From assembly GCA_016193485.1 (NCBI GenBank), contig JACPRZ010000007.1:1-64000 (forward strand): a stretch of DNA of 64,000 nucleotides. The letters run 5' to 3'. The notes beneath the pieces are model-generated. The model did not search any database, was not told where the DNA came from, and saw only the letters and a program-made list of their open reading frames with translations. The stretch comes from Bacteroidota bacterium (GTDB lineage: Bacteria; Bacteroidota; Bacteroidia; JACPRZ01). Made by a program: the position numbers and the translations under genes. This document shows, piece by piece, positions 893-56,264 of the stretch (position 1 is its first letter; each line of letters begins with the position of its first letter).

Positions 893-2100
893 TTACCCGG
901 TCAGCCACTTCCACAACGGAATAAAAGTTATTTTTTTACCGGAAATTTTCGCTTCGCTTTCGTAATCCCATGTAATAATCAAGAGATTCCTGCAGTATAG
1001 TTCATCGCAAGCAATTACCAGCGATTTCACTTCCCGTTCTTTTATTTCTTCTTTGGTTGTTGCCCAGGTTACCTGGATCAGTTGCTCTACATGTTTAGCG
1101 TTTTTGATAATGAAATCAACTTCGTGCTGGCGGTAGTCCTTCCAGTAATAAATTTCCATACCGGGTTGTTCCGCTACTTTCCTCTGCAATTCAACTGCAA
1201 CGCAGTTTTCCATCAGTTTACCGGAATTTTCACCGAATAAAAATCCTGTTGATAATATAATCCCGTTGTCTATTGCAAAGACCTTTTTGGTGGCCAGATA
1301 TTGTTCTTTGAGTTTAAATGAAAACCGCTGTAATTTAAAAATCAAAAAACTTTCTTCCAGGTAGGAAAGCCATTTGGAAAGGGTGGAAACGTGTTTAATA
1401 TTGAATAATTTTACCATCCGCGAGTAACTTATTTCCCCGGTGAAATTGGTAATTAGGTAATTTGCCAACATCTTTATTTCATTGCTTTTTTTGATTTTAT
1501 GCCGGAGGAGAATATCTTTTGTGATGATGTCGTTGAATAATCTGTGCAGAATGGATTTCCCGAATTTATATACTTCAGGGAATCCGCCAACGGATAAATA
1601 TTCCCTCAACAACTTCAGCAGCGCTGCTTTATTTTTAGCCGTGTAGTAATTTTTTTTATCAAATTTTTTGAAGTTCAGGAATTCGGAAAATGAGAACGGA
1701 TAGATAGTAAGGGCAATATGCCTTCCGGTCAGATGGGATGTGAATTCACCGCTCAGCAGGCGGGAATTGATTTTTCAACATTCTGAATTTCGTCCAGAAT
1801 AACATATTCAACATCCCCGTATAATTCGTAAAAAGCCCCGAGAATTTTATCTAAGTCAGCGGCATTGACGTTTGACAACCGTTCATCGTCAAAGTTGATA
1901 TACCCGAACCTCTCATTTCTTGCGGTGAGGTAAGAAAAAACGGATTTTCCGCACCTTCTTATGCCGGTCACTGCAAGTATATTGGGATACTTCAGGAAAT
2001 TTTTCGCTTTGCCGATAGAACTCCTTTCAATGATGTTTTCCCTTCTTTCAATATCTTCAAGTTCTTCCCTTTGTTCGGCAACGATTATTCTGAAATCCAT
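893..2100 (-). pseudogene. AAA+ ATPase with DUF4143 domain, broken by an internal deletion and frameshift
   Basis: These DUF4143 proteins are stand-alone ATPases of unknown role, often variable between strains. The N-terminal part (2100 to about 1753) has Walker A GIRRCGKS (residues 46-53) and Walker B YVILDEIQN, then reaches a stop after EKSIPAC. In another frame the protein resumes at about 1765 with SGEFTSHLTGRHIALTIYPF and continues through the DUF4143 part to 893. In intact relatives some 20-25 residues (a WExFVNRL...ITGSN-type segment) lie between these points. A deletion of roughly 60-75 bases plus a frame change therefore explains the break. The C-terminal part keeps a PD-(D/E)XK-like stretch (HEVDFIIKN). 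Loss of function is inferred. Confidence 0.8.
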
Positions 2101-2278
2101 ATAGTTTCTATTAGAAAGGTTTTATCAAATCCTTTCTAATAGCATTAGAAAGGATTAACAAATGCGAAAATACGAAAATTTATAATCGCTGATACCGTTC
2201 AATCGTACTGTAAATCCGTATTACACTTTTACATCAATCTGTCTGTTTTGTAATTAGGTTCCTATACTAATTTATATT

Positions 2279-2469
2279 GTAACTACTCACCACAGAGGCA
2301 CAAAGAGCACGGACCTGCCTGCCGCCTGCCTGCCGGTAGGCAGGGTTTCACGGAGATTTTCTCTGTGTTTCTTTTCCGCCAAGGCGGATCAGTCCTTTGG
2401 CTGAGTGTTCTCCGTGTCTCTGTGGTTTTGTTCCTATTGGTAATCAGGATTACACTGATGAGTAGTTAC
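2279..2469. repeat. MITE-like inverted-repeat element without a gene
   Basis: The 11-base ends GTAACTACTCA (2279-2289) and its exact complement (2459-2469) bound 191 bp. Inside is a second inverted repeat, CACCACAGAGGCACAAAGAG near 2288 and its counterpart CTCTGTGGT near 2417, and a G/C-rich palindrome of CCTGCCTGCCGGTAGGCAGG type. The inner sequence resembles the borders of the GxxExxY cassette at 20211-20687. It fills most of the 380-bp gap between the ATPase relic and the next gene. Confidence 0.6.
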
Positions 2470-2539
2470 TTTACATTTTAAAATGGACTGGTTGTACAAT
2501 GAAATAAACCCCACGGGTGAAAACCCGGTTATTTTTGCT

Positions 2540-2547
2540 TACTTTTG
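2540..2547 (+). promoter_or_regulatory. Bacteroidetes -7 promoter box
   Basis: TACTTTTG matches the TAnnTTTG box. Transcription would start at about 2553, so translation must start at 2561 or 2582 and not at the further upstream in-frame ATG at 2483. Confidence 0.45.
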
Positions 2548-2581
2548 CAAATCAATCAGCATGTTGGTGGTTTTTATTTCA

Positions 2582-5500
2582 ATGAATTCAGGTTTTGCCC
2601 ATTTATTCTGGTGGTTTCTCTTATTCCTATTTTTTTCCCTTCATCCGGTAAAAAGCTTTTCACAAGCACAATTCTGTATTGCCATTGGTGGCAGCGGAGC
2701 AGAAATTGCCTATGAAATTTTACAATTATCAGATGGTGGTTATTGCATTGCAGGATGGACAACTTCGTTCGGGCAGGGTGGTCGTGATGTGTATATAGTA
2801 AAGTTAAACAGTATTGGCATTATTGAATGGACCAGGACCGTTGGCGGGAGTTCTGATGATGATCTCACTTCAGCGCTTCAAACTATGGACGGGGGTTTTA
2901 TTGCATCAGGTGGTACGACAACTTATGGGCAGGGCGATAAAGATATATATGTCGTAAAATTAGCATTGGACGGAACGGTGCTTTGGACAAAATCATTTGG
3001 TGATTTTGGCTATGAGGTAAGCGGTACTATTATTGAAAATTATAATGGATTTTATACACTGGGCGGATGGACGACTTCATTAGGTTTGGGCGCCAGTGAA
3101 GGGTATTTGCTGAGAATTGATAATAGCGGAAATTTACTTTGGACCCGGTCGTTAGGAGGAAGCGGTGCTGATTTGATATATTCCATTATTCAAACGCCTG
3201 ATTATGGTTTTATAGCAGCCGGGGCTACCGGATCATTCGGTGCCGGAAGTAATGATGTATATCTTGCCAAATTTGATACTACTGGTTCACTGCAATGGAC
3301 AAAAACCATCGGAGGGTCAGCAGCTGAATGGAGTTTTTCAATCGTTCAAACTACCGATTTCGGTTATATCATTGGCGCAACAACCGCCTCCTATGGCGCG
3401 GGAAGCGATGATTTTTATGTGTTGAAGATTGACAGTCAGGGATCACTGCTTTGGACTCGCACGATTGGTGGCACAGGAACAGAATGGAGCCGTTCAATTA
3501 TTCAAACATCGGATGGTGGTTTTGCTATTACCGGTTTCACTTCTTCGTTTGGTGCCGGTGGCCAGGACGTTTACCTGGTTAAATTGACTGCAAATGGAAA
3601 TTTTGAATGGTCCCGGACATTTGGTGGAGTTGGAGATGATGTAGGAATGTCGCTTATTGAAACCAGTGATGGCGGCTTGGCAATCACGGGTAGCACGACC
3701 TCTTTTGGATCAGGAGGAATGGATGTATATATCATAAAACTTGCTCCGGGGAATGTCAACTGCTGTATAACAAGTAATGACATGGGAACCACATTCTCCG
3801 GAGGAGTGGCAGGTTCCGGGGGCCAGATTAGTTCCGGTGGTTTTGTAAGTTCCGGAGGGATAAGCGGCTCTGGTGGCATTCTTACCAACCAGTGCTGCCT
3901 CTTTTCCGTTACATCAACCATCTCACAAAGCGATCCTTCCTGTTACGGAATGAATAATGGCGTGGCGTTATCCTCTCCCACAGGCGGTACCCCTCCCTAC
4001 ACCTTCTCCTGGTCAAACGGGCAGACCGATTCGGTGGCTACCGGGCTGAGCGCAGGAGTTTATTACCTGACTATTACCGACAACTCTTCCTGCATCGCCA
4101 TGGATACTGCATATATTACAGCCCCCCCCCCGATGATTGTTTCTCTCAATAAACAGGATCTAAGTTGCGATGCCGGTGACCTGTCAATCTGGTCGTCCGC
4201 TTCCGGTGGTACCGCTCCTTTTATGTATTTATGGAGTACCGGTTCCACAACAACTTCAGTAACAGGATTAAGTTCGGGAACTTTTACCATTACCGTTACC
4301 GATAGTAAGGGTTGCACTGCGACCGATACTATAGGAATTTATGAGACCGGTTCCCCGGCACTTTCCATTATAAACCTTCAATACCCATCCTGCTACGGAT
4401 TAAGTGATGCCTCTGCAAGTATTACCGCATCAGGAGGCGCCCCTCCCTATACTTTTGACTGGTCAAACGGGCAAAGCGGATCAACGGTTACCGGGTTAGA
4501 TGCCGGTATATATTACGTAACAGTTACCGATAATAACTCCTGCAGTGACACAGATACAATTACTGTTTACACACCTGCATTACTTACTGCTTCCATTTTT
4601 AAGCAGGATGCTGACTGCGATACTGCTGACGGTGTGGCCGTGGTAACGGTTACGGGAGGAACTTCACCCCTTACCGTTCTTTGGAGTAACGGATCCACCA
4701 GCGGTTCAATTGTAAACTTAGGAGCCGGAGTTTATTCTGTCACCGTAACTGATACTAATGGTTGTGTAGATTCAGTAACTACAGTTATTAATGAAACTCA
4801 ATCGGCCGGCCTTTATATTGATTCGCTGCAAAACGTTACTTGCAGTAGTATCAATGACGGCTCGGTTACCGTCAGCGCTTCGGGAACTCCCCCCCCTTAT
4901 ACGTTTCAGTGGAGCACAGGCCAGTCGGTATCCGGCATAACCCAGGCAACGATGGACAGTTTACAGGCGGGGGTTTACAATTTGTCCGTCTCGGATAGTA
5001 ACGGTTGCACTGCGGTATTACTGATAACCATAACCCAGCCATCGGTTTTGAATGTAACAACCTCATCAACCGGCCAAACCTGCCTTGTGTACGGTACGGC
5101 CACAGCAACGGCAACCGGGGGAACACAACCTTATTCTTATTTATGGAGCAATGGCGACACATCATCCGGTATCCAGAATCAAGCATCCAGCATCTATTCA
5201 ATTACTGTAACTGATGCAAATAAGTGCATAGAGACATCATCCGTTGTTATTGCAATGATGGATTCTGTTATTGTATCCATCAACGGCACACCGGAGATTT
5301 GCGGTGAACAAACCGTTCAGTTATTGGCTTCCGCGTCCCCGCCTGCCGATTACCTGTGGAATACGGGTGATACCACCTCTTTTATTGTGGATTCACCTGC
5401 CGTAACAACATTTTATTCCGTCATTGCTGCCGTTGGGATTTGTTCTGATACGGCCGACTACCTTGTTACCGTATTTCCGGCAGTGAACGTTATTTTGGGA

Positions 5501-39073: not shown

Positions 39074-39092
39074 TGTAATACTATATTGCGAA

Positions 39093-39150
39093 TGCCTGCC
39101 TGCTCTGACGGAGTCCGATACTCGTCAGAGTCATCGGACCGGTAGGCAAG
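39093..39150. repeat. Dispersed palindromic repeat, copy 1
   Basis: TGCCTGCCTGCTCTGACGGA opens a ~55-base palindromic unit with TCCGAT/ATCGGA and CTGACG/CGTCAG pairs ending CCGGTAGGCA. An almost identical copy lies at 51802-51856 within a group II intron relic. Related GCCTGCCGGTAGGCAG pieces occur near 2330. Confidence 0.7.
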
Positions 39151-47538: not shown

Positions 47539-49122
47539 ATGTTAAACTTCATCAAAAACAAAAAATCCCTTGCAATAAATGCGGGGTTGATAATAGCCGG
47601 TATCTTTATCGGTTGGCTTTTCTTCAGAGGGGGGGGGAATCATTCATCTCACAGGACTGTAACGACTCGGCAGGATACAACCGCTGCAACGGTTTGGACC
47701 TGCGCCATGCACCCGCAGATACGGCAGGACAAACCGGGAAAATGCCCGATCTGTGCAATGGACCTGGTGCCGCTGAATACTTCCGCAGGAAGCGCTGACG
47801 GCCCTGGTAAAATTGAAATAAGCGAAAGCGCCATGAAGATTGCCGATGTGCAGACCTCAACAGTGCAAAGGGCTGTTCCCGGCAAAGAGATTCGCCTTCC
47901 GGGAAAAGTGATGACGGATGAACGGAAAATAGCAGTTATTACCGCGCGTTTTGGCGGCCGCGTTGAAAAACTTTTTGTCAATTACACCGGCCAGCAGGTG
48001 CAACAGGGCGAAAAACTCGCAACCATCTATTCCCCCGAACTGGTAACTGCGCAAAAAGAATTATTTGAAGCAATCAGTATGAAACAAACTAATCCCGATT
48101 ATTACAATGCAGCGAGAAACAAACTGAAACTCTGGTCACTCAGCAGCAGCCAGATTGATGAAATTGAAAAAAAGGGCGATCCGCAATTTTATTTTGACGT
48201 GCTCTCAACGCTTAACGGCACGGTAATGAAAAGAGAGATTGCGCTTGGCGATTACATTGAAGAAGGCGCAAAACTCTTTGAAATCGCTGATTTATCGCAG
48301 GTATGGGTTCTTTTTGATGCGTATGAACAGGATATTCCGTGGATTAAAACGGGACAGGAGGTAAATTTTGAAGTTCAATCGGTACCCGGCAAAATTTTTA
48401 CCGGTACGGTTACTTTTATTGATCCTATCATTGATCAGGAGGCGCGTGTTGCCTATGTACGCACCGAGACCTTTAACACGGGTGGCCGGTTAAAACCCGG
48501 AATGTTTGCGCGGGGAATTTTCAAAACAAAATTTCCTGCAGGTGAAAATGCGCTGATTATACCGAAATCATCCGTTCTATGGACAGGAAAAAAAGCCGTT
48601 GTCTATGTGAAGGACAAAACAAAAAATAAACCCGTTTTTGAATACCGGGAAATAATACTTGGGGAGGACGCTGGAAATTTCTATGTTGTGAACAATGGAT
48701 TAACGGAAGGCGAGGAAATTGTTACAAACGGTGTATTTAAGGTTGATGCGGCAGCGCAACTTGCGGGGAAGAGAAGTATGATGAATGTAGTTGAGGATGA
48801 GGCGAAGGAGAAGGCGGAGGAAATGCACCGGCACGAAAATACCGCGAAACAGGACGCAAAACATTTTTCATTTAAGGTATTGGGCAACTGTGAAATGTGC
48901 GAAGCGCGAATTGAAAAAGCAGCAAAGTCGGTGAACGGTGTTCTGGAAGCCGACTGGAACAAGGAAACAAAAATCATTCACATAAGTGCTGTGGACGAAT
49001 CCTTAAAAGAAAAGGTTAGTTCCGCTATCGCCATTGCCGGCCATGACACGGAATTTACAAGAACTCCGGAGGAAGCGTATAATAAATTGCCGGTATGCTG
49101 CCGGTTTGAGAGGGGGAAGTAG
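47539..49122 (+). CDS. cusB: CusB-like periplasmic adaptor with metal-binding N-terminus and C-terminal HMA domain
   Basis: 527 residues. N-terminal membrane anchor (SLAINAGLIIAGIFIGWLFFRGGG), then a heavy-metal-binding domain WTCAMHPQIRQDKPGKCPICAMDLVP (~53-78). The adaptor barrel/hairpin/beta-barrel core follows (RFGGRVEKLFVNYTGQQVQQGEKLATIYSPELV, VWVLFDAYEQDIPWIKTGQ). A C-terminal HMA-like domain carries GNCEMCEARIEKAAK and ends AYNKLPVCCRFERGK. The same HMA plus CC tail is found in the free protein at 40354. It couples CusA to CusC and may accept metal from the chaperone. A G9 tract (47629-47637) lies just after the anchor. Confidence 0.93.
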   Translation: MLNFIKNKKSLAINAGLIIAGIFIGWLFFRGGGNHSSHRTVTTRQDTTAATVWTCAMHPQIRQDKPGKCPICAMDLVPLNTSAGSADGPGKIEISESAMKIADVQTSTVQRAVPGKEIRLPGKVMTDERKIAVITARFGGRVEKLFVNYTGQQVQQGEKLATIYSPELVTAQKELFEAISMKQTNPDYYNAARNKLKLWSLSSSQIDEIEKKGDPQFYFDVLSTLNGTVMKREIALGDYIEEGAKLFEIADLSQVWVLFDAYEQDIPWIKTGQEVNFEVQSVPGKIFTGTVTFIDPIIDQEARVAYVRTETFNTGGRLKPGMFARGIFKTKFPAGENALIIPKSSVLWTGKKAVVYVKDKTKNKPVFEYREIILGEDAGNFYVVNNGLTEGEEIVTNGVFKVDAAAQLAGKRSMMNVVEDEAKEKAEEMHRHENTAKQDAKHFSFKVLGNCEMCEARIEKAAKSVNGVLEADWNKETKIIHISAVDESLKEKVSSAIAIAGHDTEFTRTPEEAYNKLPVCCRFERGK

Positions 49123-49176
49123 AATTTTTTCATGACTGCTCATACCAAATTATTTCGTGATACTGTAAATCCCGAG

Positions 49177-49533
49177 TTTGTCTTACCGGGGGAGGTCTCC
49201 ATCGTGAAAAGAGGGCGGATAGGATACCACGTAGGGTATCCTACGGGGGAAGTCAGCAGACCTGCCTGCCGAAACGCAGTGCAGGCAGGGGTATAGTAGT
49301 TGGAGAAACGAGTTCCGCAGTAAAAGCGGGGAGGTCTCACAGACCAACGAAGGACTGAACGTTAAGATGTTTCAAATTCGATTGCGGAGGTTTCCCGCTA
49401 AAAGCGGGACCAGCCCATCCTTAAACGAAGCAGGGAAAGAAATTTCCTCAACTTAATGAACCGCCCCGATAATTATCGGGGTGGTGTGAGAGGTGCACTC
49501 CGCCAGTTAATTCTGGCGGAGCCGCCTACTCGA
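49177..49533 (+). ncRNA. Group II intron relic 1 (3' part, no ORF)
   Basis: The 3' end has GAACCGCCCCGATAATTATC paired with its complement and GGTGGTGTGAGAGG (domain V-like), then an ACTCCGCCAG...CTGGCGGAG hairpin (domain VI-like) and the terminal GCCTACTCGATT. Bases 49177-49201 are identical to 51994-52018 in relic 3. The middle is degenerate and encodes no reverse transcriptase. It is fused directly to TTAGCCACAG (49534), the R'' box after the stop codon of the lipoprotein gene. It fills the gap between cusB and that gene together with 50 bp of unassigned sequence. Confidence 0.6.
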
Positions 49534-49543
49534 TTAGCCACAG

Positions 49544-50284
49544 TTATTTTTTATTCTTTGGAATATGATAAGTCACTAATAAGTCCGCCATTCTGTATTG
49601 TTGTCCATCAACAAATTCTCTTGATTTGAAGAAAATTATTGCTTTTTTAGATTCTACTAATTGTCCTATGGAGAAGTCGTAGTCCTTTCCCTTAAAGTTT
49701 GTCAAGTTAGTCAAATTGGCGGTGTCAAGCTGTTGATATTTCCAATTATAACCACTCCACATTCCAGTTTTATCTTGGTATTCATTTGCTTGTATCGTCT
49801 CTGTAAAATCCCAAGCGTCATAGTCAGTCGAGAGTATTTTTGTTTTCAAATTTATTTTTAATCCGTTAAATCCTTCTGTATCGTCCGAACCTGTTATTTC
49901 AATTATTGAGTCAGTTTGGAGTACCTCAATGAAACCAGTCCGTGCTTTGACCATTTTCATTTGTTCAGTCATTTTGCTGAACTTTTCCCACTCCTCTTCG
50001 GTCAATCCTAAATTCGGATGGTAGCCCAAACCCTGTCCTGATTTCGCAGTTTTGATATATTCCATATACCATTCTTGATTTTCTGCTATTCCCTTTTTAA
50101 ATTTTTCTTGGAGTTCGTTGTAACCATCTGGCATTTGAAAGCCCATTATGTCAAGTTCAATTAATCCAACAGGCAATAATTGTCTTAAATCGGATTCGAA
50201 GTCTCCTGTCAATAGGTCTTTGTTGATTTTTTGTCCGCAAGAAACTTCAAATAGAAGAATAAATATGAATGTCAGGTTTTTCAT
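49544..50284 (-). CDS. Orphan lipoprotein in cassette 1
   Basis: 246 residues, not recognised. The signal MKNLTFIFILLFEVSCGQ has a lipobox (VSC). The mature part is acidic and mostly helical at first (DFESDLRQLLPVGLIELDIMG, EEWEKFSKMTEQMKMVKA), then beta-like (ILSTDYDAWDFTETIQANEYQDKTG, AIIFFKSREFVDGQQYRMADLLVTYHI). The ATG lies 6 bases after the cassette start TTAGCCACAATT, and the stop is followed at once by the R'' box, so the cassette is nearly all coding. It contains no promoter of its own that I can see. Confidence 0.75.
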   Translation of the reverse strand: MKNLTFIFILLFEVSCGQKINKDLLTGDFESDLRQLLPVGLIELDIMGFQMPDGYNELQEKFKKGIAENQEWYMEYIKTAKSGQGLGYHPNLGLTEEEWEKFSKMTEQMKMVKARTGFIEVLQTDSIIEITGSDDTEGFNGLKINLKTKILSTDYDAWDFTETIQANEYQDKTGMWSGYNWKYQQLDTANLTNLTNFKGKDYDFSIGQLVESKKAIIFFKSREFVDGQQYRMADLLVTYHIPKNKK

Positions 50285-50290
50285 AATTGT

Positions 50291-50424
50291 GGCTAACGAT
50301 TTCGGGCTTTGCGTTCGGGCGGGTTTCGGAGCACAAAACTGTCAACCAGCACTAAACTTGTATAGAAGCACAAAGCTCCATGTTGGCACGTCACCCCGCC
50401 TGACGCAAAACCCGTGTGTGCGCT
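50291..50424 (-). other. attC site between cassettes 2 and 1, right end cut by an intron relic
   Basis: On the plus strand GGCTAACG (50291-50298) is followed by CGGGCTTTGCG...GGCGGG, which pairs with CCCGCC...CGCAAAACCCG (50395-50414). The central part contains GAGCACAAAACTGTCA, CAGCACTAAACTTG and GAAGCACAAAGCTCCAT, nearly identical to the attC at 55001-55137. The R'' box of cassette 2 (TTAGCGGT) is found only after the intron relic, at 50743. Confidence 0.7.
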
Positions 50425-50446
50425 CTGAATGGCAAATATAGTTCTT

Positions 50447-50743
50447 TGAAAGAATGTCCCAACGGGTGAAAGTCCCGGACAGGCGGAGGTAACGCTCCGA
50501 ACTGTAGCAAGCCGCAAGGTGGTATGGAGTAATCCATGCACTGAAGTAAGCGGGACTGCAAACGCCTGTACTGACGAACAGAAACTGCAGACAGAGGCAG
50601 GGCTGTATACGTGACCCGTACGTACAGTGGTGTGCCTGCCCGTTTACCCGCCTCTGGCGTGGCCTTTGGAGGGAGAGCCCCCCCCGCCCTCCCGTCCCGA
50701 TAGATATCGGGACTATCGGGATTGGCGGGGCGGGCTACTCGAT
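50447..50743 (+). ncRNA. Group II intron relic 2 (domain I fused to domains V-VI, ORF deleted)
   Basis: 5' part: CCAACGGGTGAAAGTCCCGG, GTAGCAAGCCGCAAGGTG and AGTAAGCGGGACTGCAAACG, typical of domain I in bacterial group II introns. It jumps without a reverse-transcriptase gene to a domain V-like hairpin (CTGTATACGTGACCCGTACG TACAG) and ends GGGCTACTCGATT. The last 132 bases (from 50613) are the same as 52028-52159 except for two mismatches. It abuts TTAGCGGT, the R'' box of cassette 2, and runs opposite to the cassette genes. Confidence 0.65.
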
Positions 50744-50764
50744 TAGCGGTTCGTTCTTCTTTCA

Positions 50765-51154
50765 TCAGGTAAGGGTTATTGTGTTCAATCTAGTGTCAAT
50801 GCAAAATTTCGTCCCTTCAAAAAAGTCCAATCCAAGCAGTCCGTTATAGTCCGAGAAAATGCCGTGAGCCAGGAAGTCATAAACTTGAATTTGGAACTTG
50901 TCTTTTGTTTGTCCGAGTGATGAAAAACTGCCAACTTCAAAAACTTCTGTTTCTATTATTCCGTTTGCTGTTTCAATTTCAACAGTCCCGATATTGTCTT
51001 TACGGTCGTAACCTAATAAATACAATGCGTTGCTGTCTATGGTCGTGTTTGTTGCACCTGTATCAAACACCATTTTCAGTTCATACTTTCCGTCAATTTC
51101 AATGCTGACAATAATAAGCCCGCTTTCTGGTTCTCGTTTGAATGGGAAAGTCAT
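50765..51154 (-). CDS. Retropepsin-like aspartic protease (cassette 2, second gene)
   Basis: 129 residues of a single retropepsin-like domain: LIIVSIEIDGKYELKMVFDTGATNTTID, with the catalytic DTGAT motif near residue 32, then a flap region and NGLLGLDFFEGTKFCIDTRLNTITL, the hydrophobic-hydrophobic-Gly-x-Asp end of the fold. As in retropepsins it would act as a dimer. Start ATG overlaps the stop of the preceding gene (TAATG), so the two are translationally coupled. Natural substrate unknown. The stop is 15 bases from the R'' box. Confidence 0.85.
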   Translation of the reverse strand: MTFPFKREPESGLIIVSIEIDGKYELKMVFDTGATNTTIDSNALYLLGYDRKDNIGTVEIETANGIIETEVFEVGSFSSLGQTKDKFQIQVYDFLAHGIFSDYNGLLGLDFFEGTKFCIDTRLNTITLT

Positions 51155-51408
51155 TATTTGATACGATTAAATATGCCGGTAATCTTTCTTGTCGGTTTGA
51201 AAGTCCCCGTAAAAATTAGAGTGATTTTGTCAAAAGCAGATGTTTTGTCCCTGCCGATATAGCATACTTCTTTTTTGTCCTTACTGTGGTAAATAGGAAT
51301 ACCTGAAAGAATGTCAATATTACTGCCGTCCATAATAGGATTACCAACTAAAACCCATTCGTCCGGGTAAAGTTTTTTGATGTCATTGATATTTAATAGT
51401 TGTGCCAT
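51154..51408 (-). CDS. Small protein coupled to the retropepsin-like gene (cassette 2, first gene)
   Basis: 84 residues: MAQLLNINDIKKLYPDEWVLVGNPIMDGSNIDILSGIPIYHSKDKKEVCYIG..., no family with known role. Start at 51408 is chosen over 51435 because a complete promoter ends between them. Being coupled to an aspartic protease in one cassette, it may be its substrate, inhibitor or partner. Confidence 0.75.
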   Translation of the reverse strand: MAQLLNINDIKKLYPDEWVLVGNPIMDGSNIDILSGIPIYHSKDKKEVCYIGRDKTSAFDKITLIFTGTFKPTRKITGIFNRIK

Positions 51409-51432
51409 GTTATTGTATTTATAATTATGGTG

Positions 51433-51440
51433 CAAAGTTA
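51433..51440 (-). promoter_or_regulatory. Complete Bacteroidetes promoter within cassette 2
   Basis: On the minus strand TAACTTTG (TAnnTTTG) stands 20 bases after a TTTG -33 box (about 51461-51464). It lies inside the cassette, so this cassette brings its own expression. Confidence 0.6.
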
Positions 51441-51488
51441 CAATTTTTATCCATCACTTTCAAATCTGCACGGTCGTTCATAGAATGA

Positions 51489-51607
51489 CCGCTAACGGCA
51501 GTTTGTGAAAATACTTCAATGTACGCCCTTTCCGGAACTGCGCTGCAAAGCCCAGCACATAAACTTTCCCATCGCATAATTTCTTCTCATTTGCTATGGT
51601 TATGTGC
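51489..51607 (-). other. attC-like site upstream of cassette 2
   Basis: On the plus strand CCGCTAAC (51489-51496, the cassette 2 start) to GTTATGTGC (51599-51607), with GCGCTGCAAAGC and AGCACATAAAC between. The core differs from the two other attC sites, so it is of another attC family or a hybrid. The owner of the GTTATGTGC box was not found. Confidence 0.5.
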
Positions 51608-51639
51608 GGGGCAAAGATACCCATAATTCACAACAAATT

Positions 51640-52157
51640 TTGAATAACTTAGTCTGAAAATCCTTAACAGGTGGGGGGGGAATTGGTATCTTAGCCCCAG
51701 GAATTACACCCGATAGCTATCGGGTTGGACAAGACCGTAACCAGGTTGGGTTCTCCTCCCTTGACCAAACCGTCAGCGGGGACAATCCGGTCCGGCTCAT
51801 TCCTGCCTGCTCTGACGGAGTCCGATACTCGTCAGAGTCATCGGACCGGTAGGCAGGGATATGTTTGTCGGAAAACTCCCTCATTTTATTGCCTTGCTGA
51901 CTGGCAGGCAGGGATGAGATAACACATCATATCAAAGTCCGAAGAGTATAAAAGTTCAGCCATGTAGATGCAGCAGCGATAGGCGAAAGGGTGTTTGTCT
52001 TACCGGGGGAGGTCTCCATATATACGAGACCCGTACGTACAGTGGTGTGCCTGCCCGTTTACCCGCCTCTGGCGTGGCCTTTGGAGGGAGAGCCCCCCCC
52101 GCCCTCCCGTCCCGATAGATATCGGGACTATCGGGATTGGTGGGGCGGGCTACTCAA
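51640..52157 (+). ncRNA. Group II intron relic 3
   Basis: The firm part is 51994-52157: TTTGTCTTACCGGGGGAGGT (shared with relic 1), a TATACGAGACCCGTACGTAC domain V-like hairpin, and the same 132-base 3' end as relic 2, finishing GGGCTACTCAATT. The upstream stretch from about 51640 (GACCGTAACCAGGTTGGG, a G8 tract at 51673-51680, repeat copy at 51802-51856) is probably decayed intron plus repeats; its left limit is uncertain. No reverse transcriptase. It joins TTATGCG (52158), the R'' box of cassette 3. Confidence 0.55.
51802..51856. repeat. Dispersed palindromic repeat, copy 2
   Basis: CCTGCCTGCTCTGACGGAGT and following, nearly identical to 39093-39150. Here it sits within the degenerate part of an intron relic. 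Confidence 0.7.
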
Positions 52158-52275
52158 TTATGCGTTCGTGCTACTCTGCCTGCGAAGCCACTACAAACGA
52201 GGATACTATAAGCGTAACGTTCCCCTACGTTGAAAGGGGGTGGTGACTTTAGATACCATTCTTTAGTACTCACAC

Positions 52276-53798: not shown

Positions 53799-54779
53799 TT
53801 ATTTCTTACCTATTATATGATATCGACACCCGTCATGTACGGATCTCCCAGCACTAACACACTCCTCTAGGCTTTCTACATTATGTTCAATCGTAATGCT
53901 ACCAGGATTTAAACCGAATGGTTGTAGTACGTTATGTGGAAAAGAATTGATGATTCCTTCAAGATAACCCGTCATGAAGTAACATAATCCACGATTGCTC
54001 TTATTATCCAAATAATCTTGAGTTAAGAAAGAATACTTAAGTAAAATTACCATGTTGTTTTTCCATTTTGACTTTTCTCCCTCCAATTCAAATTTTCCAA
54101 ATCCAGCATCAGAATCGAATTCGATCCATTTTTTTATCCATTGAATCAAATCAGAATTACTCGATTTCGATTGACTTTCAATATCCTTAACCATTTCTGC
54201 AGCGAATCGCTCGCTTGCCTTCTTGCCAATCGTATAAAGAACATTAGAATTATTAGTATTCAAATTTCGGACTTCCCGGAAAATCAGATTTATTGTCTTA
54301 TTACTGAACAAGACATTTCTTGAACGCTCTTTTTCGTCTCCGAACCCATTGAATAACGATCCTTCATCCTTCTTATATGTAAGTGTTCTATAATAGTGTA
54401 GGTCGTGTTCAACAACGCCCTTAGCAAGTTGCCTTCGAAACTCTTCATTATCACTTTTCAAATGATTGACCTCGTCTCTTGTGCGTTTTTGGATATCATC
54501 AGGTATTTTTTGAAGTGATTCCAGAACAAGTTTGGAATTCCCCAGTACACGTTCGGAATTCTCATAAGAATTCATCAGAACACGTTTGGAATTCACCGCA
54601 GTAATTATCTGCCATCCGAATAGGAGCACAGGAACCATCAGTGTGAATTCATCAATATGAATAACATTAAAATTCCAATTTGATTTATAAAGCTCAGGAA
54701 AAATATTCAACAAGAATGCGACAACCGTAAGGGTCGTTGGAATAATCATAAAATCCCAGATTCGTTTTGAAGTGTGCAT
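53799..54779 (-). CDS. Membrane protein with C-terminal V4R-like domain (cassette 3, first gene)
   Basis: 326 residues, no named family recognised. Two membrane helices (FMIIPTTLTVVAFLLNIFPEL; FTLMVPVLLFGWQIITAV), then a coiled coil (ENSERVLGNSKLVLESLQKIPDDIQKRTRDEVNHLKSDNEEFRRQL). The soluble domain (~115-326) ends FMTGYLEGIINSF...ITIEHNVESLEECVSAGRSVHDGCRYHIIG. The pattern GxxxGxxxxx...E..C.a.G...C.F of this end resembles the V4R (4-vinyl-reductase) small-molecule-binding domain. It is tightly coupled to the asparaginase gene, which suggests a sensor-effector pair; this is inference. Confidence 0.7.
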   Translation of the reverse strand: MHTSKRIWDFMIIPTTLTVVAFLLNIFPELYKSNWNFNVIHIDEFTLMVPVLLFGWQIITAVNSKRVLMNSYENSERVLGNSKLVLESLQKIPDDIQKRTRDEVNHLKSDNEEFRRQLAKGVVEHDLHYYRTLTYKKDEGSLFNGFGDEKERSRNVLFSNKTINLIFREVRNLNTNNSNVLYTIGKKASERFAAEMVKDIESQSKSSNSDLIQWIKKWIEFDSDAGFGKFELEGEKSKWKNNMVILLKYSFLTQDYLDNKSNRGLCYFMTGYLEGIINSFPHNVLQPFGLNPGSITIEHNVESLEECVSAGRSVHDGCRYHIIGKK

Positions 54780-55000: not shown

Positions 55001-55137
55001 CGCATAACGTTTTGCGGCTACAAGAAGTTGGCGATTTCGAAGCACTAAACTGTCAGCCACCACCAAACTTGATACGAAGCACAAAGCTTCATTTAACCAC
55101 TGAGCCGCCAATTTCTTGTAGGTGCTGTTATGGGTAG
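55001..55137 (-). other. Intact attC site between cassettes 4 and 3
   Basis: Plus-strand CGCATAAC (55001-55008, cassette 3 start) to GTTATGGGTA (55127-55136, R'' of cassette 4). Long stem: GGCTACAAGAAGTTGGCG opposite CGCCAATTTCTTGTAGG. Core: GAAGCACTAAACTGTCAGCC, CACCAAACTTGATACG, GAAGCACAAAGCTTCAT, shared with 50291-50424. It begins two bases after the stop codon of the cassette 4 gene. Confidence 0.75.
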
Positions 55138-55139
55138 TG

Positions 55140-56264
55140 TTATACATTCTTCTTATCCTCGCTTTCAGGTTTTTGTTCATCTTTAATTGAATATTTTTCA
55201 AGTAATAATTGTTTATCCTTGTTGCCAAGTTGCTTATATCTCTCTCGTACGATAGCTGTGTCTTCCATTAATTCCTCGGATAGGTCTTTATCTTTTCCTT
55301 CCTCTGGCTCCGGAGGTGTTAGTAGTTTTACTTCATTACCTTTTATAATGTGGTCGGTAATAACACTACTTACTTCTTCTATTTTCTTATCAACTCCCGT
55401 TTTATCAATTTTTTTGTCAGATTTTAATTTTTCTTTATGTTGTTCAAGCGCTTTTTGAGCAATTGATTCTTTGATATTATCAAGCATTAAATTTTCTCGC
55501 TCTTTTTCCATTTGAATTAATTTCTTGTTCCCCATGTAAGAGTCAATTATTTCTCTCGCTCTTTTTGATTTATACAATAAATATGCTGCATACACTTTTA
55601 AACCAGTCTTTATTAACTCTGTTAAATCAATCGAAATATCAAAATCGAAATTAAATATTACATCTATTGATCCGTTCTGAATTTCTTCCAGCTCAATATC
55701 ATCAGGTGATTCCGATTTTAAAAGAGTATGATAAATTATTAATGTTCTGTTCCATCGATTAAGTACTTTCGAGAATTCTTTAAGGCTTGTAGTAGTATTT
55801 AAATCTTTGAAAACTAACGAAACAATAGCTTGGTCATCGGCTGATTCAAGTTCAGATTCAATGTCAGAATATTTAGCGAATATGGCTCTTATTTGGGTTA
55901 ATTCTCCGTTGTTCTGGTCTATTCGTTGTAACAATTGTTGAAGAATCCCATTAAACTTTTGGTAATATACATTTGCAGCAATTTGTGAGTCTGTGTCGAT
56001 TTCGTCCAATTGCACCTTTGATTCAAGGTCGGTAAATGGTGGTGTGTCGCGAAGGACAATTTTTATTTCATCGTGAAGAGAATAGTTCTCAAACTCATTA
56101 AATTTTAATTTAATCTTGCTGGAAAGGTCCTTCATATAAGCAAGATTTTGATTTTGTCCGTGTTGAATTGATTGAACATTGTCCTGGATGTCCCTTCTGA
56201 ATCCAGAATTAATCACCATGTTTTGAAAAAGGTCGATTTTTGATACTAAACTTTCTATATTCAT
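55140..56264 (-). CDS. Orphan coiled-coil protein of cassette 4
   Basis: 374 residues, not recognised. No signal peptide. Residues 1-~190 are helical and acidic (MNIESLVSKIDLFQNMVINSGF, YYQKFNGILQQLLQRIDQNNGELTQIRAIFAKY). The middle has SIDVIFNFDFDISIDLTELIKTGLKVYAAYLLYKSKRAREI, possibly an amphipathic membrane-touching helix. Then comes a Lys/Glu-rich coiled coil and a Pro/Glu-rich unstructured tail. The ATG lies 30 bases after the cassette start, the stop two bases before its attC. A scaffold or an anti-phage component can be imagined, but nothing in the sequence decides. Confidence 0.8.
   Translation of the reverse strand: MNIESLVSKIDLFQNMVINSGFRRDIQDNVQSIQHGQNQNLAYMKDLSSKIKLKFNEFENYSLHDEIKIVLRDTPPFTDLESKVQLDEIDTDSQIAANVYYQKFNGILQQLLQRIDQNNGELTQIRAIFAKYSDIESELESADDQAIVSLVFKDLNTTTSLKEFSKVLNRWNRTLIIYHTLLKSESPDDIELEEIQNGSIDVIFNFDFDISIDLTELIKTGLKVYAAYLLYKSKRAREIIDSYMGNKKLIQMEKERENLMLDNIKESIAQKALEQHKEKLKSDKKIDKTGVDKKIEEVSSVITDHIIKGNEVKLLTPPEPEEGKDKDLSEELMEDTAIVRERYKQLGNKDKQLLLEKYSIKDEQKPESEDKKNV

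Follow-up and report, generated by a model that had tools for sequence, protein, structure and literature searches.

Decayed group IIC introns in attC-like sites of a Bacteroidota gene cassette array

The window considered here, a stretch of 64,000 nucleotides on contig C71 of a Bacteroidota genome (4.0 Mb in 72 contigs, 92% complete), carries three group II intron relics within an array of gene cassettes. They are very probably decayed copies of a single group IIC family that retrohomed into attC-like sites of this array. Each lies in an R'' box and points against the cassettes, the open reading frames (ORFs) of the window being on the minus strand and the relics, with true 3' ends, on the plus strand; this central claim of a preliminary description of the DNA holds. 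The relics do end in ...CTACTCGAT or CTACTCAAT at 49534, 50743 and 52158 (plus strand), as described there, but we place the junction one base earlier, since GT^TA is the reading required of the empty site. The R''-side exons of attC 1, 2 and 3 consequently begin at 49535, 50744 and 52159, and read TAGCCAC (49535..49541), TAGCGGT (50744..50750) and TATGCGT (52159..52165).

A full-length relative with its protein, which the preliminary description had suggested looking for, is present in the same genome. Copy A, on contig C30, is a group IIC intron of 1958 bases that scores 65.9 bits with the Rfam model RF02001 (group II D1-D4-3, gathering score 32 bits). It contains the only RVT_1 match in the genome, within a 424 amino acid protein with an intact YADD reverse transcriptase. 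The domains of this protein are RVT_1 and GIIM only (class C, without an endonuclease domain), and its best relatives in the PDB are group II intron reverse transcriptases, including GsI-IIC (E about 1e-105 to 1e-100). Contig C30 stops at the last bases of copy A and 141 identical bases open contig C14, which, judging from this overlap, is probably the continuation of C30 and was therefore taken as the downstream contig of copy A. Three other relics lie outside the window, B on C30 and C and D on C58. The copies begin with GTGYG and end with CTACTCRAT, in register with GT^TA, the 3' end of copy B being slightly different. The pattern SCTACTCRATTR has eight matches in the 4.0 Mb genome, seven of which are copies of the intron at attC-like sites; the eighth (C20:117961) was rejected as an intron, as it sits inside protein-coding sequence. 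The shared 3' ends are thus not found at sites unrelated to attC. There are seven insertions in the genome, intact copy A among them; each genuine 3' end falls at GT^TA in the R'' box of an attC-like site, always on the bottom strand and against the direction of the cassettes.

The three relics align piecewise to copy A with 72-100% identity (BLAST) and differ in what they have kept. Relic 2 (50418..50743, plus strand; recognised by RF02001, BLAST, folds and inspection of the junctions), whose start is now set at 50418, has both ends intact (GTGCG...CTACTCGAT). It consists of copy A positions 1-164 and 191-221 and then jumps to 1873 at a AGGCAGGG repeat, so that positions 222-1872 are missing. 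Its domain VI is enlarged and its domain V is intact, differing from that of copy A by compensatory, paired changes, which argues that the ancestor of relic 2 was still under constraint. Relic 1 (49176..49534, plus strand; BLAST to copy A and inspection of the junction) is 5'-truncated: it lacks everything before intron position 340 and comprises positions 340-499 and 534-566 followed by 1905-1958, with the ORF deleted and the palindrome CCCGATAATTATCGGG in place of the domain V core. Relic 3 (51888..52158, plus strand) is made of copy A positions about 236-364 joined to 1884-1912 and to the enlarged domain VI that it has in common with relic 2; BLAST to copy A shows that the span 365-1883, ORF region included, is gone, as are everything before about 236 and half of domain V. 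Its intron part is thus confined to about 51888-52158, shorter than first described; the sequence to its left that had been included (51611-51801) was rejected as intron, being a transposase remnant instead (BLAST, Pfam). Relics 2 and 3 do share their 3' ends, over the last 136 bases with 3 mismatches rather than 132 with two, and the identity between relics 1 and 3 extends over 27 bases (49176-49202 = 51993-52019), not 25. None contains an ORF of note, as had been observed, the longest open stretches being 73, 108 and 69 codons in relics 1, 2 and 3. In the Rfam search that had been proposed, relic 2 reaches 33.9 bits with RF02001, relic 3 has a weak match below the gathering score (21.6 bits, model positions 61-145), relic 1 has none, and the domain V model RF00029 (gathering score 40 bits) is silent in the window. 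Domain V of the relics was recognised through alignment to copy A, which itself scores 28.4 bits with RF00029; it folds in copies A and B. Rfam matches to snoRNA, miRNA and lncRNA families in the region scored far below gathering and were disregarded.

Alignment of the ends of copies A and C and relic 2 has a single solution that restores a GTTRRRY-like box, with a 5' exon ending in TGT and a 3' exon starting with TA. The rejoined exons fold as single-stranded DNA into complete hairpins, both for relic 2 (50290-50417 joined with 50744-50753, z -3.2) and for copies A (z -4.2, with C14 as downstream sequence) and C (z -3.8). An uninterrupted attC-like site at 55001..55136, its bottom strand on the plus strand, folds well on the bottom strand (z -3.17 against shuffles) and less well on the top strand (z -1.15). 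We built a covariance model, R1, from 20 rejoined intron-split sites of other species and no site from the window genome. Of the 23 base pairs in these sites, 17 show double compensatory changes, and AACG and TGTT are invariant. R1 recognises the intact site of the window with 134.6 bits (E 4e-33) and the R'-L'-loop-L'' part of attC 2 (bottom strand, 50290..50417, plus strand), directly 5' of relic 2, through a match at 50290-50424 (83 bits, E 2.2e-19). The sites are about 125 bases long and their boxes can be compared to the RYYYAAC / GTTRRRY of attC, often reading GTTATGC or GTTGTGC, which agrees less closely with GTTRRRY. Two attC scanners demanding symmetric arms found 0 sites in the window; a looser scanner picks up intact sites, and R1 was used to decide. 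This model finds 19 sites in the window genome; of 60 genomes from its class, 48 have such sites, with up to 49 per genome. Contig C27 of the window genome carries five of the 19 sites (1262-4447) as an array running in one direction, and the ORFs that separate them lie on one strand. Among the genes within or close to the arrays on C58 (L022, 765-3725 and 6933-8237) and C27 (L161, 1429-2687) are those for a restriction-modification methylase, a DNA methylase, a DinB-like protein and a GNAT acetyltransferase; Por secretion-tail domains also occur on C58 and, like the nearest relatives of the intron protein, point to Bacteroidota.

No match to the integron integrase model TIGR02249 exceeds the cut-off of 265 bits in the window genome, which has only two tyrosine recombinases, and the arrays of this genome are therefore CALIN-like (clusters of attC sites lacking integron-integrases) rather than a complete integron. 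The same search was negative in all 60 same-class genomes and likewise in control genomes; the model does match elsewhere, with 433 bits in an Ignavibacteriaceae genome. Integrase-related tyrosine recombinases are nevertheless carried by 31 of 42 intron-bearing genomes, though not by the window genome. Two of these, scored as whole proteins, reach 202 and 217 bits with TIGR02249, under the cut-off. Among 30 recombinase loci with up to 1.5 kb of flank, an R1 site was found in seven, and in six it lies downstream in the cassette direction. This recombinase is a candidate Bacteroidota integron integrase and partner of the attC-like sites. Candidate loci include L173:2634-3713, L175:5671-6785 and L176:4542-6296, and also L186, L197, L202, L204, L209 and L213; several of the proteins bear an extra N-terminal region, with the gene just upstream of attC-like cassettes and in the same direction.

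The absence of a canonical integrase from the window genome and the 60 relatives raises the question of whether the targets could belong to another class of intergenic hairpins, in arrays that are not integron cassettes. R1 also has no match in 80 kb of plasmid sequence from other phyla, among it class 1 integrons, and the sites it describes therefore diverge from classical attC. We nonetheless consider this explanation unlikely, as the sites combine GTT/AAC boxes with a long covarying stem, one strand that folds better than the other and a length of about 125 bases. They are also arranged in arrays with ORFs between them on one strand, as on C27, the resident introns insert into them exactly as IIC-attC introns do, and in six genomes an integrase-related recombinase lies just upstream in the same direction.

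The intron lineage is Bacteroidota-wide, dozens of species carrying it in sites of this type. We collected 80 loci encoding proteins about 63-77% identical to that of copy A, nearly all labelled Bacteroidota, and R1 has 98 matches in these, 97 of them on the strand of the intron. A site ends at the intron start in 49 of the 67 eligible loci (those with at least 700 bases upstream of the protein), a count that relies on the distance to the protein start and that a few loci with less upstream sequence also satisfy; 20 of these 49 had been used to train R1 and 29 had not. As in the window genome, the introns of these relatives sit in R'' of the bottom strand and run against the cassettes, with R'' boxes that differ across many genera. 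The nTGT at the end of the 5' exon can pair with the conserved motif GACGAACAG of copy A (candidate exon-binding site EBS1, ACAG), in agreement with the suggested pairing between intron-binding (IBS) and exon-binding sites, and at least the TGT/ACA core of this pairing is found in the relatives. The motif GACGAACAG hardly varies, so the pairing cannot be tested through covariation.

In position and orientation these insertions match the classical IIC-attC introns, which likewise enter the bottom strand in R'' at nTGT^T and run against the cassettes, CALINs included (PMC7923331). In the introns of S.ma.I2 type found in intI1 integrons of Citrobacter (L131) and Klebsiella (L137), the 3' end CTACCCGAT^TA is homologous in position to the ends described here. 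Their reverse transcriptases, however, are only 37-39% identical to ours, their hosts are not Bacteroidota and their targets are classical attC sites rather than the divergent ones. In phylogenetic analysis, 20 proteins of the Bacteroidota lineage form one clade with maximal support (100/100), apart from the terminator-targeting IIC proteins and from the two IIC-attC proteins of intI1 integrons. Forcing the Bacteroidota clade together with these two proteobacterial proteins was not rejected (p-AU 0.098), so this test neither shows nor rejects that attC targeting arose once, in an ancestor shared with the proteobacterial lineage. Terminator-targeting IIC introns (GsI-IIC type, here on plasmids L130, L132-L136, L139 and L144) have the same class C protein without endonuclease and a hairpin upstream of the insertion, but they follow terminator hairpins with T runs, whereas the window family sits in attC-like hairpins.

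The insertions could also be imagined to have multiplied by being carried along when cassettes or DNA segments were duplicated, instead of by separate retrohoming events. The likeness between copies does continue past the intron for a few bases of the 3' exon (96% over 51 bases between relic 2 and copy C), and relic 3 and copy D have the same transposase remnant beside a similar R' half. Yet the bases past R'' are loosely alike in the relatives generally, and the R'' boxes and cassette genes differ among the copies. Different R'' boxes with the same insertion point in relatives of many genera likewise make this explanation quite unlikely.

Retrohoming would proceed as follows. The intron RNA, borne by its own reverse transcriptase/maturase, would reverse-splice into the bottom strand of an attC-like site once this has folded, the R/L stem providing the upstream hairpin and nTGT^T the IBS1/IBS3. 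Copying of the inserted RNA into DNA would then yield an intron lodged in R'' and oriented opposite to the cassette genes. Decay followed through internal deletions, 5' truncation and palindrome insertion, accompanied at relic 3 and copy D by the transposase remnant. The internal deletions of relic 2 and copy C lie at small palindromic repeats in the intron loops: relic 2 has its junction inside AGGCAGGG and copy C inside ACTATCGGGATT, repeats that are part of the palindromes scattered over the genome. Such repeats (CCCGATAnnTATCGGG, CCTGCC..GGCAGG) also occur in the loops of copy A (for example at 217-253, 391-415 and 1855-1885) and over many contigs. Because every one of the three relics lacks parts of the ribozyme, they are fossils that decayed after insertion, and on their sequence none is plausibly able to splice or move today.

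It had been proposed that mobility of these protein-less relics would need a reverse transcriptase from elsewhere. That they have no protein is correct, but a reverse transcriptase alone would not suffice, essential ribozyme parts being missing too. ORF-less bacterial introns are known, nearly always beside a related intron with a protein (PMC4424553); those are splicing-competent, whereas the window relics, which likewise have a related protein elsewhere in the genome, are not equipped to be so. Continued movement of the relics with the C30 reverse transcriptase acting in trans might be suggested by the derived enlarged domain VI that relics 2 and 3 share in different R'' boxes (136 bases, 3 mismatches), and by relic 1 and copy B both being ORF-less. 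The missing ribozyme parts led us to reject this as very improbable. Furthermore, the internal deletions of relics 2 and 3 are largely complementary, which argues that the two do not derive from one deleted parent. Finally, although the region is full of interspersed palindromes (e.g. CCCGATAnnTATCGGG, 21 copies in 429 kb), the chance that the shared 3' ends represent a family of palindromic repeats with no relation to group II introns is negligible given the RF02001 match, the aligned full-length intron with its protein and the intron-type ends in register. A comparable case of decay is the IIC-attC intron UHB.F1 of a hypersaline cassette array, which shares both the opposite orientation and the 5' truncation (PMC7923331); it is a single fragment, whereas seven insertions, an intact copy included, are found here in one genome.

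Some observations weigh against the interpretation of the relics as IIC introns retrohomed into attC-like sites. In addition to the missing canonical integrase (in a genome that is 92% complete) and the failure of R1 to match class 1 integron DNA, the RF00029 model finds nothing in the window at a threshold as lax as E 5, and the core of domain V is gone from relic 1. Relic 2 is the only one of the three to keep both junctions, the insertion points of relics 1 and 3 being read from the 3' side alone. Lastly, for 18 of the 67 eligible relatives no suitable attC-like match lies where the intron begins, and targets other than attC-like sites may therefore also be used by this lineage.

The R' half of attC 1 was not found, the left end of relic 1 meeting sequence beside a HlyD/CusB-type efflux gene (47539-49122, Pfam). 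Cassette 1 has an ORF of 246 amino acids without a Pfam family at E 0.01 (49544..50284, minus strand). Cassette 2 encodes a retropepsin-like aspartyl protease of 129 amino acids (PF13650; 50765..51154, minus strand) and a second ORF of 93 amino acids without a Pfam family (51154..51435, minus strand). The R' half of attC 3 (CGCTAACGGCAGTTTGTG..., 51487..51610, plus strand; BLAST) starts as on C58, 51481-51514 matching C58:5478-5445, and insertions part it from its R''. The first of these is the remnant of a transposase element with a DUF772 domain (51611..51801, plus strand; BLAST, and Pfam PF05598 on a C58 ORF), about 77-79% identical to C58:5414-5237 and C58:280-88 (L022); two of these three remnants adjoin intron relics (relic 3 and copy D). 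A 57-base palindromic repeat follows (51799..51855, BLAST), 98% identical copies of which are found at 39092-39148 of the window and at L021:8950-9006, the latter inside relic B. Beyond relic 3, cassette 3 carries an asparaginase-family protein of 506 amino acids (PF00710, PF17763; 52276..53796, minus strand) and an upstream ORF of 326 amino acids without a Pfam family (53799..54779, minus strand), and the intact site at 55001-55136 lies downstream of a further ORF (55140-56264, minus strand).

In the IntegronFinder 2.0 survey, only In0 elements, from earlier work, and one complete integron (Salinibacter) are reported for Bacteroidetes proper, the number of CALINs there not being stated (PMC9024848). 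Our search of open papers found no description of the present arrays, which does not show that none exists. We tentatively propose, as a possibility that falls a little short of being the likelier one, that Bacteroidota possess a largely overlooked integron-like system, with divergent attC sites of ~125 bases in arrays and a non-canonical tyrosine recombinase upstream and codirectional, parasitised by its own phylum-wide IIC lineage. Each intron insertion should inactivate its attC for cassette excision, since R'' is parted from L'' and R', which suggests that insertion freezes cassettes in place. The introns are independent markers of the positions of attC-like sites: a model derived from intron-split sites reveals such sites across one class of a phylum with rarely reported arrays, in 48 of 60 genomes and without a canonical integrase. 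The outcome is a set of target sites open to testing, together with a candidate recombinase and an intact intron that still has its protein.

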